DNA from: an uncultured Armatimonadota bacterium
Lineage (GTDB): Bacteria > Armatimonadota > Fimbriimonadia > Fimbriimonadales > Fimbriimonadaceae
Direction: 5' to 3'
DNA length: 64,000 nucleotides
Assembly: GCA_903899015.1 (NCBI GenBank)
Contig: CAIUHP010000111.1
Coordinates: 62,001 to 126,000 of the forward strand
The translations under genes were made by a program, and so were the position numbers. Numbering within the stretch: the first letter of the stretch is position 1; each line of letters opens with the position of its first letter. The notes under the pieces were generated by a model that saw nothing but the letters and a program-made list of their open reading frames with translations, was not told where the DNA came from and searched no databases. This document shows, piece by piece, positions 29,571-51,723 of the stretch.

Positions 29571-30728
29571 GTGACCGTGAGCTACTTGCTTTGGGTGGAA
29601 ATGGAGGGATTTTATGTTGACCATCATGAGTCGACAGACAAGCCGCTGATCGTTGCAAGGGAGAAAATCGTGCTGGATGCTAACCTAATCGCGCGTAAGC
29701 GTGGGGTGCGGCTGGGCATGGAGGTTCGGCAAGCGAAAGCGGTTGTGACGGATTGCGTAGTCAAGCTTTGGGAGCTAGAACGGTACCACGCCCGACGCAA
29801 TCAATGGCTGAATGTCTGTACCGATTACACAGGAGTGATCGAACCTCTGGATCAACACATCGCGGCACTTGACTTGAGTGGACATCCTAACCCGCTTGAT
29901 GTTACTGAACGGATGGTTCGAGAACTTGTCGGCAAGATCAAACTCAATGTCCACTATGGGGCCGCTACTTCGGTATGGATTTCGAAACTAGCGGCAGATC
30001 GACATGATCTTGGACGCGCTGTTCACACCCCTTCTGAGTTCCTCGCCGATTTACCTGTCAGTGACCTGCTGCCAGTCAGTGAAGATGCTCGCCAACGGCT
30101 GACCTTTCTCGGCTATCGAAGTATCGGTGAAGTCGCTCAACTCCCGTTAGATACGCTCCAAGGACAGTTCGGAGAAGAAGCTCATCTCATCTTCTCAGCG
30201 TCTAAAGGGAAACATCATCAACCCGTTCATGCCATCTACCCATTGGATTCCATCCAGGAATGCCTCCTTTTCGATGGAGTGGTTGAGGATACCGATACCA
30301 TCGACAATGGGCTACAGGCAATTGCAGAACGTGTCGGACGCCGCCTCACCGATAAGGGGATGCAAGGGTCCAAGCTATCGATTCGGCTCGAATTCGAAGA
30401 GCGTAACTACTGCAAAGATCGCCGCTTCACCAAGCCCATTCACAATCCGCTCACCACACTGATTGCCATGCGACTGCTCATTCAGGATGCTCTTGACGCT
30501 CCAGTAGTTGGCATCCATGTCAGATTGACCGATTTAGAGAAAACGCGTTATCGTCAACAGGAACTGGAAGGCTTCAACCTACGCAGCAAGCGGCCAGAAG
30601 CTCAGTCTGCGGTTGGCTACGTTCGCACCGTCTTTGGAGACCAATCCCTCAAACTAGGAAGCGAGATAGAACTCCCCCGCCGGATACGCGTTCTCAAGGA
30701 GTGGCAAAATGCCACCGGCTGGCGGTGA
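29571..30728 (+). CDS. imuB: ImuB-like inactive Y-family polymerase protein
   Basis: 385 residues. The Y-family palm is recognisable, but the catalytic carboxylates are altered: WVEMEGFY replaces the DMDAFF motif, and EPLDQHIAALDLSGHP replaces the SIDEAYLD motif, with Gln for the catalytic Glu. A helix-hairpin-helix (RQRLTFLGYRSIGEVAQLP near 178) and a little-finger domain follow. It is an ImuB-type scaffold that helps DnaE2 at lesions. No ImuA is seen nearby. Start is the first of two GTG codons; no SD is seen, in line with a leaderless mRNA. Confidence 0.8.
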   Translation: MTVSYLLWVEMEGFYVDHHESTDKPLIVAREKIVLDANLIARKRGVRLGMEVRQAKAVVTDCVVKLWELERYHARRNQWLNVCTDYTGVIEPLDQHIAALDLSGHPNPLDVTERMVRELVGKIKLNVHYGAATSVWISKLAADRHDLGRAVHTPSEFLADLPVSDLLPVSEDARQRLTFLGYRSIGEVAQLPLDTLQGQFGEEAHLIFSASKGKHHQPVHAIYPLDSIQECLLFDGVVEDTDTIDNGLQAIAERVGRRLTDKGMQGSKLSIRLEFEERNYCKDRRFTKPIHNPLTTLIAMRLLIQDALDAPVVGIHVRLTDLEKTRYRQQELEGFNLRSKRPEAQSAVGYVRTVFGDQSLKLGSEIELPRRIRVLKEWQNATGWR

Positions 30729-33700
30729 AACTCTCGCGCTATGGCGCGAAGCGGGTGAATGGTGGACCGACCAGCCTCAACGTGAGGTGCATCGGTACCT
30801 AGACGAAAATGGAATCCGAAGAGAGAGCGTCACCCCCCTTCGCCCCCTCTATCAGATGGATTCCGAACCGGACCAACAAGTCGCTCAGATCAGTCAGGCC
30901 CGTCGAGTGAGCCATAACAAGGTCGCCTTAGCCTGTGGAATGGTTCACGCTCCCAAACTAACACACTATATAGCCGCGCCTAAGAAAACCTCTTTTGCTA
31001 CTCTCCACACCTTGAGTGGATACGCGTTTGGGCGTAGCACCATGATCGCGGCGAGTATCCCAGCCCTGGTGGCGGCCCGTGGAAGTTGCGCGGCTATGAT
31101 CGCCGACCCATTTTCACTGACCGGAGTAGCTGAGTTCACCCAAACCGCATTGCAAGTGGGCATTCATCCCCTTGTGGGAGCCAGTTTTGAAATGGTAGAC
31201 GGGGGCGAGATTGTGCTCACCGCACGCAACCGGATCGGATTTCGCTCACTATCTCGCCTAATTACCGAGTGCCATCTTAATGAGCCACGCCTCTATCCTC
31301 TGTGTACATGGGAGCGCATTGAGCGCCATACGGAGAGTCTTCTTTGCCTAACGGGTGGAGACGCAGGCCCCATCAATCGCGCCCTTATGCGAGGCGAATA
31401 CGATTCTGCTCAAAACTGCCTGGACCGGTTGATAGGGCTCTATGGGAAAGAGAATGTCTATGTCCAGATCGAAAGGACCGATCTTCCTTGGCAGATTTCG
31501 GTCAACCGCAAGCTACTCGAACTCGCAGACGCAATGGGATTAGTCGCAGTGGCAGGCGGGCCCATCACCCACGCCAAACCGGAGCATTTCCCTGCCCAAG
31601 ACATGCTCGGATGCATTGAAACGCTTTGCTTGATCGAAGAAGTTGACGGACGCAAACCGCGACGCCACCCCGACCAGCCCCAAATTCAGCAGCTTCCTTG
31701 GCGAGGATTAAATGCGGAACGATATCTGCCCAATGCCGACGAAATTGCGTCTCGCTTCTGCGATCGCCCAGATCTCGTCGCGAACACGCTTCAACTCATT
31801 GAGAAGTGCGATCGAAATGTCCTTCCCGGGCACACTGACCTGCCTGCATTCTGTGACGACGAGAACAACATGTTCCGCGAAATCACCCTGCAAGGAGCAC
31901 GCCAAAGATATCCCAATTTCACACGCGAACTGCATGTGCGGCTTGATATGGAGATGGAGCGCATCATTCGTTTAGGTTATGCGGGACATTTTCTGGTCGC
32001 GTGGGACATGTGCCGCTGGGCACACGAGCAAGGAATTCTCTTTAGTGGCCGTGGTTCGGTGGTGGATTCAGTGGTCGCTTACTGCATCGGCTGCTCCCGG
32101 ATTGACGCCTTTGAGCACGATCTTTTCTTCGATCGTTTCCTACCTGCCGATGGCAGTAAACGCCCCGATATCGACATTGACTTTGAAGCCAAACGTCGAG
32201 ATGATGTCCGGCTCTACCTCGCCGGTAAATATGGAGAGAAGCACGTCGCCACCGTTGCGGCGGTAGGCACCTATGGCTCACGGGGAATTGTACGCGAGGT
32301 CGGCAAAGTGATGGGGATCCCTCACGAAAACCTCGCTTATCTCGCGAAAAGGCTGCACGGCAGTGTCTCCGCTCATCGACTTGAGAGCGAAATTGAGCGG
32401 AAGCCGGAACTCCGTAATAGTGGTATCCCTCGGGAAAGGTTTCGCTGGGTCTTCCAATTGGCCCGTGAACTGATGGATGTGCCGCGCAACATGCGGGCGC
32501 ATTCCTCAGGAGTTGTTATTTCAAAAGATCCCATTGCCGATACCGTCCCGGTGATGTACTCTGGAGTCGAGGACATCCGAATCATCCAGTGGGACAAGCG
32601 CAGTGCCAAGAGGTGCTTCGATAAGTTCGACATCCTCTGTCTGCGAGGTAACGATGTCCTCTCCGACACCCAGCGCCGCACGCGTGAGCAGGTCGCAGGT
32701 TTCAGTGTAGAAACGCTTCCGCTGGACGACCCCGAAACCTATCGTGCGATGCGAGCAGGACAGCTCATCGGTATCCCGCAATCGGCGTCTCCTGCGATGC
32801 GACAGGCGCATATCCGCTTGCGAACGGAAAACTTCAAAGACGCGGGCATCGTTCAAGCTGCAATCCGCCCCGGCGTTGGCGGTGCGGTGAAGATCAACGA
32901 GTTCATTGCTCGCAGGCGCGGGAAACCTTTCAGCTTTGCTCACCCCGAGCTCAAACGCATCTTAGGGGAGACTCATGGAATTGTTGTTTTCCAAGAGCAG
33001 ATCGATCAGCTTCTGCAGACATTCGGTGGTTACAGCTCCGACGAGGCAGAAGAGATTCGAGAAGCTGTTCATAAACGTAGGCGTGAAGATTACGTCCAGA
33101 ACATTCGCCAAAATGTCATCGACAATATCATAAGCAACGGTTACAGCCCTGAGGTTGCTCAAGAGGTCTACGACATAGTTGCAGTGTTTCAAGGATACGG
33201 ATTCGCTCAAGGTCATGCTCTCGCTTTTGCCGAGATCTCTATTCGTTCGATTTGGTGTCAGCAAAACTACCCTGCCGAGTATTTCGCGGCGATGCTCGAT
33301 GCCCAGCCTGCTGGATACTATGGCCCTTGCACCCTGGTCAATGAAGCCCGAACGCGCGGGGTCAAAATTCTTCCCCCAGACGTGAACCTCAGCAACATCA
33401 ACTTCACGGTCGAGAATGTAGTCTCCCACCACGATCCCAAACTCATCGTGCCTAACGGCGGTATTCGAATCCCCTTCAATCAAATCAGCGGGCTTTCGAA
33501 AGAGACGAAAGAAAGAACGATGATCGCCCGCATGGATGGCCCTTTTAAGTCGATGGCTGACTATGTTGCTCGGGCCCGCCCCGATCGTGATGAACTGGAA
33601 CAGATGATCTTATGCGGTTGCTTCGATACCCTTGAGCGCAATAGACGTGCCCTTTTGTGGTCTATACCTAGCGCAATCGAATACGGAAACCTGGTCGAAG

Positions 33701-34218
33701 CCACCCGAACGACCCTTCCCTTACTTCCTAACGAACCGCCTTTACCAAACGGAGTTGATGGGTTCTGCCCTACCGAAGAAAGACTGTACGAGCGTGCAAT
33801 TTTAGAGTTAGATGTCGATCAACACTTGATGGGCTACGAACGTCCGCGCGTGCTTGCTAAGGGAGGCCTTACCGCCGCGGAAGCCAGTGTCTTGCCTCAC
33901 AACACCAAGGCGTTTGCGGTTGGTAACCCAATTCGCTTACGTTTCCCGCCAACTGCTAGTGGAAAGCGAGTAATGTTCTTTGATCTCGAAGATGAAACGG
34001 GACTTCTCAACGTGACCTGCTTTGATGACACCTACCAGAGATACGGGCATACCGTCATCTGCTCACCCTATATCACCGTTCGGGGCGTTGCCCAAAACCG
34101 CGACGGTCACATTGCCTTCCTGGCTCAAGGTATCTACCCATTCAAACCAGGAATCTACAATCACATACCCGCCGAATCGTCGTTGCCCGTGGTAACGGGA
34201 GACTTTCTTATGCGATAA
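30709..34218 (+). CDS. dnaE2: DnaE2/ImuC-type DNA polymerase III alpha subunit
   Basis: 1169 residues. The catalytic Asp residues are in PDIDIDFE near residue 486 and KRCFDKFDILCLRG near 630. The N-terminal PHP domain is degraded: FATLHTLSGYAF keeps only the first His of the metal site and IADPFSLTG lacks the His of the usual TDHG, as in error-prone DnaE2. GRGSVVDSVVAYC replaces the usual GRGSAAGS. An OB domain is near residues 1080-1150. The first about 45 residues (EAGEWWTDQPQREVHRYLDE) look like an ImuB tail. AAGGAG 7 nt before the ATG supports this start. It overlaps ImuB by 20 bp. Confidence 0.9.
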   Translation: MPPAGGETLALWREAGEWWTDQPQREVHRYLDENGIRRESVTPLRPLYQMDSEPDQQVAQISQARRVSHNKVALACGMVHAPKLTHYIAAPKKTSFATLHTLSGYAFGRSTMIAASIPALVAARGSCAAMIADPFSLTGVAEFTQTALQVGIHPLVGASFEMVDGGEIVLTARNRIGFRSLSRLITECHLNEPRLYPLCTWERIERHTESLLCLTGGDAGPINRALMRGEYDSAQNCLDRLIGLYGKENVYVQIERTDLPWQISVNRKLLELADAMGLVAVAGGPITHAKPEHFPAQDMLGCIETLCLIEEVDGRKPRRHPDQPQIQQLPWRGLNAERYLPNADEIASRFCDRPDLVANTLQLIEKCDRNVLPGHTDLPAFCDDENNMFREITLQGARQRYPNFTRELHVRLDMEMERIIRLGYAGHFLVAWDMCRWAHEQGILFSGRGSVVDSVVAYCIGCSRIDAFEHDLFFDRFLPADGSKRPDIDIDFEAKRRDDVRLYLAGKYGEKHVATVAAVGTYGSRGIVREVGKVMGIPHENLAYLAKRLHGSVSAHRLESEIERKPELRNSGIPRERFRWVFQLARELMDVPRNMRAHSSGVVISKDPIADTVPVMYSGVEDIRIIQWDKRSAKRCFDKFDILCLRGNDVLSDTQRRTREQVAGFSVETLPLDDPETYRAMRAGQLIGIPQSASPAMRQAHIRLRTENFKDAGIVQAAIRPGVGGAVKINEFIARRRGKPFSFAHPELKRILGETHGIVVFQEQIDQLLQTFGGYSSDEAEEIREAVHKRRREDYVQNIRQNVIDNIISNGYSPEVAQEVYDIVAVFQGYGFAQGHALAFAEISIRSIWCQQNYPAEYFAAMLDAQPAGYYGPCTLVNEARTRGVKILPPDVNLSNINFTVENVVSHHDPKLIVPNGGIRIPFNQISGLSKETKERTMIARMDGPFKSMADYVARARPDRDELEQMILCGCFDTLERNRRALLWSIPSAIEYGNLVEATRTTLPLLPNEPPLPNGVDGFCPTEERLYERAILELDVDQHLMGYERPRVLAKGGLTAAEASVLPHNTKAFAVGNPIRLRFPPTASGKRVMFFDLEDETGLLNVTCFDDTYQRYGHTVICSPYITVRGVAQNRDGHIAFLAQGIYPFKPGIYNHIPAESSLPVVTGDFLMR

Positions 34219-49059: not shown

Positions 49060-49680
49060 ATGAAAACAAACACATACAATCTGTCAGAAAAAGATCAAAT
49101 CCGCTTTAACGAGTTAATGGAGGCTAGTTACCGCAAGGTTTACAACATGGCATTCCGACTGTCGGGAGTTCGCTCCGACGCCGAAGACCTTACTCAGGAA
49201 GCATTCTTCAGGGCCTACCGTTCGTTTAGCGAATACGAAGGGGATCGACCATTCGAGAATTGGATCTTCCGGATTGTCACTCGACTGTTTCTCGATATGT
49301 TGCGCACCCGCCGACGCCGAGTGAAAGCGATTTCATACGATACTCCGCTTGCAAATTCCGCAGGGGACGAGAACTTGTTCTTTGAGATGCCCGACCGTTC
49401 CGCAAATCCTGAACAGAGGATCATGGAGAATTCGTTCAGCGAAGATCTGCAAAAGATCTTGAACACCCTTTCTCCTGAGCAAAGACTGTTGGTTACGTTG
49501 GCGGATATTGAAGGTGTCCCTTACAAGGAAATCGCTGAAATTCTGAATAAGCCAGTTGGAACCATCCGTTCACGCCTTCACCGAACCCATAAAACGATCA
49601 GAACACGACTCGAGAATCTTCGAAAAGAGAACCTTGTTCCAATCACAGTGCCCGGTATGCGATTCGTTTCTCAGCACTAA
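49060..49680 (+). CDS. ECF-type sigma-70 family factor
   Basis: 206 residues. Sigma region 2 is at 18-92 (RKVYNMAFRLSGVRSDAEDLTQEAFFRAYRSF, then ENWIFRIVTRLFLDMLRTRRRR), with the -10 recognition helix, and region 4 is at about 140-195 (SPEQRLLVTLADIEGVPYKEIAEIL, GTIRSRLHR). Region 3 is absent, as in ECF factors. No anti-sigma gene lies adjacent. An ECF-like promoter upstream suggests self-activation. Confidence 0.93.
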   Translation: MKTNTYNLSEKDQIRFNELMEASYRKVYNMAFRLSGVRSDAEDLTQEAFFRAYRSFSEYEGDRPFENWIFRIVTRLFLDMLRTRRRRVKAISYDTPLANSAGDENLFFEMPDRSANPEQRIMENSFSEDLQKILNTLSPEQRLLVTLADIEGVPYKEIAEILNKPVGTIRSRLHRTHKTIRTRLENLRKENLVPITVPGMRFVSQH

Positions 49681-50874: not shown

Positions 50875-51174
50875 GTGGCAGACAGCTTAGGGAATCTCTG
50901 GGAATACAATTTTTGCCGAGTAATCATCGTTGATGTATCAGACGATTATCGACTCATGCAACCGCCAATGCCCTCGGATTACTATCCGATTCTAAAGGAA
51001 ATTTGGCTTCCGAGATATAAGCTCTCAAAGAAGCTCGCTCACGACATCCTTATTAACGGATATCTTTACGACTGGCACCAGACACCAAACTTTGAATGTG
51101 GTTCTTGGTACGTAGGTGTCGTTGAAGAAACACTAACCAAGGCATCTGAGGAATATCTTCCTCAGACGGCCTAG
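50875..51174 (+). CDS. Hypothetical protein
   Basis: 99 residues from a GTG; an ATG near 50956 is an alternative start. Content includes PSDYYPILKEIWLPRYKLSKK near the middle and aromatic-rich NGYLYDWHQTP. I do not recognise it. Its stop overlaps the flgM-like stop by 4 bp, in convergent orientation. AAGGAG lies 11 bp before the GTG. Confidence 0.5.
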   Translation: MADSLGNLWEYNFCRVIIVDVSDDYRLMQPPMPSDYYPILKEIWLPRYKLSKKLAHDILINGYLYDWHQTPNFECGSWYVGVVEETLTKASEEYLPQTA

Positions 51175-51449
51175 TCTCTCTGCTTGTACTGGTCGGCAAC
51201 CGCTCGGCGAACCATCGCGTCAACGATTTCTTCACCGGAAGGGTTGTAAAGCCCGGCTGCGATCTGAGCGCGAAGTTCCGCGACCATCTCTTCGCGATCT
51301 TGCATGGCCATGACGTCTTGCGTAATCGCTTTAACCAATTGCTTATCTTGTTGTCGAATGTTCTCAACAGCAACCTTTTCGATCGCATCGACAATCGATG
51401 AACCTGGATTGCTAATGATCTTCTTTACTTCAGCGTCTGAAATCCGCAT
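51171..51449 (-). CDS. FlgM-like anti-sigma factor
   Basis: 92 residues. The last half matches the FlgM anti-sigma-28 domain: EMVAELRAQIAAGLYNPSGE then EIVDAMVRRAV, corresponding to the conserved LKxxIxxGxYxxxxxxxAxxM pattern. The N-terminus (MRISDAEVKKII) is helical. FlgM binds and inhibits the flagellar sigma factor. No flagellar genes are in this window, so it may regulate another sigma factor, or flagellar genes lie elsewhere. A GGGGGAG ribosome site and a GEMM riboswitch precede it. Confidence 0.75.
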   Translation of the reverse strand: MRISDAEVKKIISNPGSSIVDAIEKVAVENIRQQDKQLVKAITQDVMAMQDREEMVAELRAQIAAGLYNPSGEEIVDAMVRRAVADQYKQRD

Positions 51450-51468
51450 TGTTACTCTCCCCCGTTTT

Positions 51469-51544
51469 CCAGACAGGCATCCCGGCTGTCTTAAAATTAA
51501 GACCCTAGGCTTTGCGTGAGTAGGGTCGCCCCTATCGTGCCATT
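51469..51544 (-). ncRNA. Cyclic-di-GMP-I (GEMM) riboswitch
   Basis: On the minus strand: P1 5' arm GGCA; P2 hairpin TAGGG-GCGA-CCCTA with a GNRA tetraloop; the conserved ACGCAAAGCC; the P3 helix GTCTTAA paired with TTAAGAC; then AGCCGGGATGCC whose TGCC closes P1. This follows the GEMM-I consensus in order (tetraloop hairpin, GACGCAAAGCC-like core, GGGTCTTA/TAAGA tetraloop receptor side, GCCGGGTTGCC). An upstream CCAAGACAG (51548-51556) can extend P1 with CTGTCTGG. It ends about 20 nt before the flgM-like ATG and its SD, so control of translation is likely. Confidence 0.85.
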
Positions 51545-51723
51545 TTTCTGTCTTGGTTTTCGAACCCTCTCGAAACCTGAATTTATATTCTGGCGCTAGG
51601 CAAGAATTTCTTAATAGGATCGCCTACTTTTTTAGGATTTTTCTGGAATTTAATGTACTCCGACTAAGTCGCTCGAATGAGCACCCAAATCTGGGTCCGA
51701 TTGTGCACCTCCCCAGTCGCCAC

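Follow-up and report, generated by a model that had tools for sequence, protein, structure and literature searches.

The window analysed here, a stretch of 64,000 nucleotides (64 kb), originates from the genome of a Fimbriimonas species of the Armatimonadota (G000; 4.94 Mb, 119 contigs, 99.87% complete). On its minus strand it carries flgM, a gene for an anti-sigma-28 factor of 92 amino acids (51449-51171), preceded by a structured leader. The ribosome binding site GGGGGAG (51463-51457, minus strand) lies 7 nt before the ATG, in agreement with the initial annotation, and 23 nt separate the end of a c-di-GMP-I (GEMM-I) aptamer (51551-51473, minus strand) from the start codon, close to the approximately 20 nt noted earlier. 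The sequence ATTAAG-N15-GCCAGAA (51615-51588, minus strand), roughly 35 nt ahead of the aptamer, marks the position of a decayed sigma-28-type promoter. A gene for a sigma-70 family (ECF-type) sigma factor is located near flgM (49060-49680, plus strand). Farther away, a Y-family polymerase gene followed by a gene for a PHP-domain DNA polymerase III alpha subunit (29571-34218, plus strand) resembles an ImuB-DnaE2 mutasome pair.

The covariance model RF01051 matched the aptamer over its full length (model positions 1-87) with 39.8 bits, compared to a gathering score of 35. The E value was 2.7e-4 for the search of 4227 Rfam families against the 64-kb window, in which only the aptamer and three tRNAs exceeded the Rfam gathering scores, and 4.8e-6 for RF01051 alone against the whole genome. 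There it was the sole match to this family, the next two reaching 14.8 bits, which corresponds to the control level. The elements previously read by eye in GEMM-I order, i.e. the hairpin UAGGG-GCGA-CCCUA, ACGCAAAGCC, the helix GUCUUAA/UUAAGAC and AGCCGGGAUGCC, are all present, as are the GNRA loop, CGCAAAGCC and the G at the position of Vc2 G20 that constitute the conserved GEMM-I core. An alignment of 17 leaders showed 18 double-changed cells; shuffles gave 4.6, and not one of 500 reached the observed number. Covariation was found in the hairpin below the GNRA loop and in the core helix, with changes on both sides in 5 of 8 pairs, a covariation of 0.403 compared to 0.191 in shuffles, and one core-helix pair occurring as C-G, G-C and U-A among the relatives. 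Since the relatives fold alike and covary, the aptamer is more than a chance match. Profile and covariation place the window RNA in the c-di-GMP-I family, for which binding of c-di-GMP is predicted, with indirect support from genomes in which aptamer and GGDEF genes are jointly missing. In some relatives within the phylum, RF03167 (c-di-GMP-I-GGC) outscores RF01051.

FlgM restrains the flagellar sigma factor. The earlier reading of the 92-residue protein as FlgM-like held in the profile search, which gave 35 bits for PF04316 (cut-off 25, E value 1.7e-8, residues 36-79), and a profile of its family matched the solved FlgM structure 1rp3/1sc5 (chain 1rp3_B) with an E value of 2.3e-5. It is the only FlgM in the genome, its closest relative being the FlgM of G013. 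The NCBIfam equivalog for flagellar FlgM, TIGR03824, was not reached (20.7 bits against 40.75). Pfam accordingly places the protein in the FlgM family, though not within the strict flagellar equivalog, and binding and inhibition of FliA/sigma-28 are predicted.

Between aptamer and start codon, two helices compete for one strand. The switching strand CUGUCUGGAA (51476-51467, minus strand) can form the 3' strand of P1, the bound-state helix, in which AGACAG (51553-51548, minus strand) pairs perfectly with CUGUCU at 51476-51471. Alternatively, it can form the 5' strand of an anti-start hairpin by pairing with nucleotides 8-16 of flgM (codons 3-6; 51442-51434, minus strand; duplex of -12.5 kcal/mol), so that ribosome site and AUG become enclosed in a hairpin. 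The two partners are mutually exclusive. In most leaders of the relatives P1 is present either as GACAG/CUGUC or as a replacement helix built from other base pairs in other genera (AAACAG/CUGUUU, CGACAG/CUGUCG, CUUGG/CCAAG and UUCGA/UCGAA), and in many leaders the hairpin with codons 3-6 is the choice of unconstrained folding. The duplex in G000 is stronger than that of synonymous recodings (p=0.017), and over 22 representatives from 19 genera the comparison with synonymous recodings yielded a Stouffer Z of 7.6, and in each of 5000 permutations matched strands paired better than strands swapped between leaders. In 22 of 22 cases the serine codon has its wobble base paired (17 U-A, 4 C-G and 1 G-C), a type of count that is inflated by kinship among the leaders. 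The four C-G pairs belong to four different genera and the G-C pair to one species of the Fimbriimonas genus, and the serine codon UCA is rare elsewhere in the same flgM genes. As judged from these comparisons, the coding side of the anti-start helix is under constraint at the RNA level and covaries through a synonymous codon position. Part of this helix is constrained anyway by conservation of the N-terminal residues MRISD, and approximately one in four Fimbriimonadaceae leaders, for the most part from a group with GTG start codons, do not have the helix.

Formation of the P1 state costs a median of 4.4 kcal/mol over the leaders and 1.5 kcal/mol, a small gap, in G000. The region from -20 to +16 was more open in the P1 state in 36 of 36 leaders, the values being nearly equal in a few of them. 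For G000 the prediction leaves the ribosome site itself mostly unpaired whichever state is formed (0.72 and 0.75) and places the change in the wider start region (0.51 to 0.63). Direct pairing of the ribosome site by the 3' strand of P1 was considered as well and not found in most Fimbriimonadaceae leaders, the window included; the helix with codons 3-6 is found there in place of it. In other families of the order, the 3' strand of P1 pairs directly with the ribosome site (CUGCCUCC/GGAGGCAG, CUGUCUCC/GGAGGCAG and UGACCUCC/GGAGGUUG). From their anatomy, both platforms predict that the ligand turns flgM translation on. Many leaders additionally carry a short stem-loop just 5' of P1 (e.g. GGGGAAACCCC, GGCGAAAGCC or GGACGAGAGUCC), which is perhaps a stabiliser of the 5' end of the mRNA.

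The arrangement is widespread. In nearly every Fimbriimonadaceae genome with flgM (56 leaders parsed, the relatives being mostly metagenome bins) the aptamer core lies approximately 45-145 nt before the start codon, and outside this family 38 genomes from 14 families have an RF01051 match on the strand of flgM and no more than 500 nt ahead of it. No aptamer above the cut-off precedes flgM in one genus (g4: G022, G051 and G068), in G047 and, by profile, in G065. The three g4 genomes are flagellated, and their flgM starts shortly after a divergent gene and has no riboswitch leader. By Pfam, almost no FlgM is present in the order-level genus g37. A true absence was rejected here in favour of a threshold effect, since 5 of 5 leaders read have a short FlgM-like open reading frame directly after the riboswitch; these proteins are diverged (MQISL...MRR..AD), and the two tested against Pfam scored below the cut-off. 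Elsewhere in the phylum, single genomes carry as many as six GEMM-I copies (G188, G123, G131, G144 and others), partly as tandem pairs, e.g. on contigs 93 and 116 of G123, and the Fimbriimonadaceae mostly have a single copy.

In most relatives the aptamer is preceded, at a distance of about 25-40 nt, by CTAAAG-N13..16-GCCGATA, which resembles the flagellar sigma-28 consensus of TAAA at -35 and GCCGATAA at -10 (PMC8325347). A promoter score of 11-13 out of 13 was reached by 33 of 56 leaders, compared to approximately 0.5% of shuffles reaching 11. In G000 the score was 8 of 13, no higher than in shuffles, and two of its siblings showed 7-9. Because a sigma-28-type promoter precedes the aptamer in these relatives, sigma-28 probably transcribes its own inhibitor there, and c-di-GMP would decide on its translation.

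The absence of flagellar genes from view, noted before for the window, extends to the whole genome, in which no FlhA, FliG or flagellin was found. Motility control as initially suggested is thus not literally possible in this species, which has no flagellum, and the suggestion holds for the numerous relatives that share this leader and are flagellated. The three proteins are also absent from G004, G005, G008, G013, G011, G014, G015 and the partial genome G007, and present in the other congeners. Five of these flagella-less genomes (G000, G004, G005, G008 and G013) keep the aptamer, FlgM, a FliA-type sigma factor gene and 4-10 GGDEF proteins. In the remaining four (G011, G014, G015 and G007) no GGDEF protein and no FlgM were found, nor was an aptamer above the cut-off, the latter also after rechecking with sensitive filters; c-di-GMP signalling seems to have been lost there along with flagella, FlgM and riboswitch. 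G011, G014 and G015 keep a diverged FliA. In a single-gene RpoB tree, G000, G013, G004 and G005 form one clade beside the flagellated G018, G008 stands apart, and G011, G014 and G015 are placed elsewhere. Based on these positions, flagella were probably lost three times in the genus. Since the flagella-less species either keep aptamer, FlgM and GGDEF proteins together or lack all three, the gene content indicates that the aptamer-FlgM unit goes with c-di-GMP synthesis and not with the flagellum, a pattern comprising few independent events. Two further genomes, G049 and G032 (92% and 89% complete), showed no FlhA, FliG or flagellin and have kept riboswitch and FlgM; they are possible further losses, and G032 gave no match at the level of FliA.

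Altogether, the best reading of the leader is the one proposed initially, namely that c-di-GMP sets the level of the anti-sigma factor. Starting from the aptamer, FlgM, the covarying exclusive helices, the promoter of the relatives and the co-occurrence with GGDEF proteins, all of which are directly visible in the sequences, we consider it likely that a c-di-GMP-I riboswitch turns on translation of flgM and that FlgM then silences FliA/sigma-28, with feedback in the relatives. At low c-di-GMP, CUGUCUGGAA would pair with the first flgM codons, and the resulting hairpin would trap the ribosome site together with the start codon. Bound c-di-GMP would hold CUGUCUGGAA in P1, the start region would open, and FlgM would be made and shut off sigma-28. 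Where the mRNA originates from a sigma-28-type promoter, this would result in a negative feedback gated by c-di-GMP. Ligand binding, the ON direction, the binding of FlgM to the sigma factor and the target genes are the predicted parts of this circuit. In the flagella-less lineage the target would have to be something other than flagella; by analogy to Rubrobacter, surface pili or attachment would be a guess. A sigma-28 regulon in the flagella-less genomes was sought with the flagellin-promoter pattern of the flagellated relatives, which gave no more matches than the reversed control.

The opposite sign, by which the ligand would lower FlgM and free sigma-28, has precedents, as GEMM-I switches of both signs are known (PMC9262584) and Cd1 of C. 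difficile is OFF by termination (PMC5386303). Nonetheless, in two different platforms it is the blocking strand, directed at the start region or at the ribosome site, that P1 takes away in the bound state, and an OFF switch would let high c-di-GMP promote flagellar transcription, so that this direction is considered improbable. A different ligand, i.e. another cyclic dinucleotide such as 3',3'-cGAMP, is suggested by the leader of the sibling G005 (L078), which reads TAGCA instead of GGCA and has an A at the position equated with Vc2 G20; such an A is typical of cGAMP-type GEMM-I RNAs. In the leaders read, no second case of this kind was noticed, as opposed to the G found at this position in G000 and nearly all relatives. 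Moreover, the presence of the aptamer tracks that of GGDEF proteins, whose presence does not by itself specify the dinucleotide produced. Sensing of another dinucleotide in the window is accordingly regarded as very improbable.

More weight is due to the explanation that the unit is a relic in G000, which after the loss of flagella drifts toward loss itself and regulates nothing now. The whole-genome search for FliA, suggested in the initial annotation, yielded a fliA-like gene, the frame of which is interrupted by a 1-nt insertion: compared to G013, one base is added at a run of four C (contig 45, L164:1490-1515), with otherwise intact flanking regions. The match to TIGR02479 covered model positions 46-224 and stayed below the cut-off, with 170.8 bits against 189.6. 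Together with the decayed promoter of G000, this frameshift implies that the regulatory loop may be failing in G000 and that its output may be weak or lost. Furthermore, the promoter is decayed in two siblings as well, the FlgM protein diverges faster among the flagella-less species than in flagellated pairs, and the third flagella-less lineage has lost the unit outright. On the other hand, the assembly is a draft and the site of the frameshift a short C run, the extra base being due either to recent damage or to an error of assembly, and the flagella-less siblings G004, G005, G008 and G013 have fliA genes above the TIGR02479 cut-off without stops. All four members of the clade of G000, in which synonymous sites are near saturation, have kept the aptamer, P1, the anti-start helix and an unbroken FlgM frame. 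With a dN of 0.23 and a dS of 1.17 (dN/dS about 0.2) between G000 and G013, their FlgM is, by this ratio, constrained, though less so than in flagellated pairs, and unit retention tracks the GGDEF genes. Drift of a relic is therefore thought to be unlikely, without being far-fetched. We tentatively suggest, at somewhat less than an even chance, that a circuit evolved for flagella has persisted beyond their loss, with two or more lineages of Fimbriimonas keeping it for a non-flagellar programme ruled by c-di-GMP (e.g. pili or attachment) and a third having lost c-di-GMP synthesis together with the circuit.

Many proteins, and also riboswitches on structural operons, are known routes by which c-di-GMP stops motility. 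In the literature searched, the reach of which excluded key GEMM RNA papers, no earlier description was found of a c-di-GMP riboswitch in front of flgM, nor of one in Armatimonadetes. The GEMM-I and FlgM families are known; new are their pairing, the predicted ON logic, the spread over the phylum and the survival without flagella. If true, a phylum-wide riboswitch on an anti-sigma gene would be a new wiring, in which one RNA sets the whole late flagellar sigma activity and sits in a feedback loop with sigma-28. The flagella-less species, very probably including the cultured F. ginsengisoli, would offer a direct way to ask for the role of a flagellar sigma factor without flagella. F. ginsengisoli Gsoil 348 is a non-motile isolate with a chromosome of 5.23 Mb and one fliA (PMC4072686).

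Compared to the known RNAs of RF01051 and RF03167, the window RNA scores above the RF01051 cut-off and differs in the regulated gene. Cd1 of C. difficile, located before the flgB operon, likewise ties c-di-GMP to flagellar gene control by a GEMM-I aptamer, and in both cases high c-di-GMP is predicted to stop motility. However, Cd1 is an OFF switch acting by transcription termination on an early flagellar operon that includes sigD (PMC5386303), whereas the Fimbriimonas unit is a predicted translational ON switch on an anti-sigma gene. The FlgM-sigma-28 checkpoint shares the FlgM family protein and, in the relatives, the sigma-28-type promoter before flgM; it differs by the c-di-GMP riboswitch in the leader and by the lineages that keep the unit without a flagellum. 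In the RsiG-WhiG system, c-di-GMP silences a sigma factor of the flagellar clade via an anti-sigma factor, with type IV pili as the output in Rubrobacter (PMC8325347). The likeness lies in this route of c-di-GMP through an anti-sigma factor to a flagellar-clade sigma factor. In contrast to RsiG, a protein which binds c-di-GMP directly, FlgM belongs to another family and its amount would be set by an RNA sensor, so that, if true, the same logic arose twice by different molecules.
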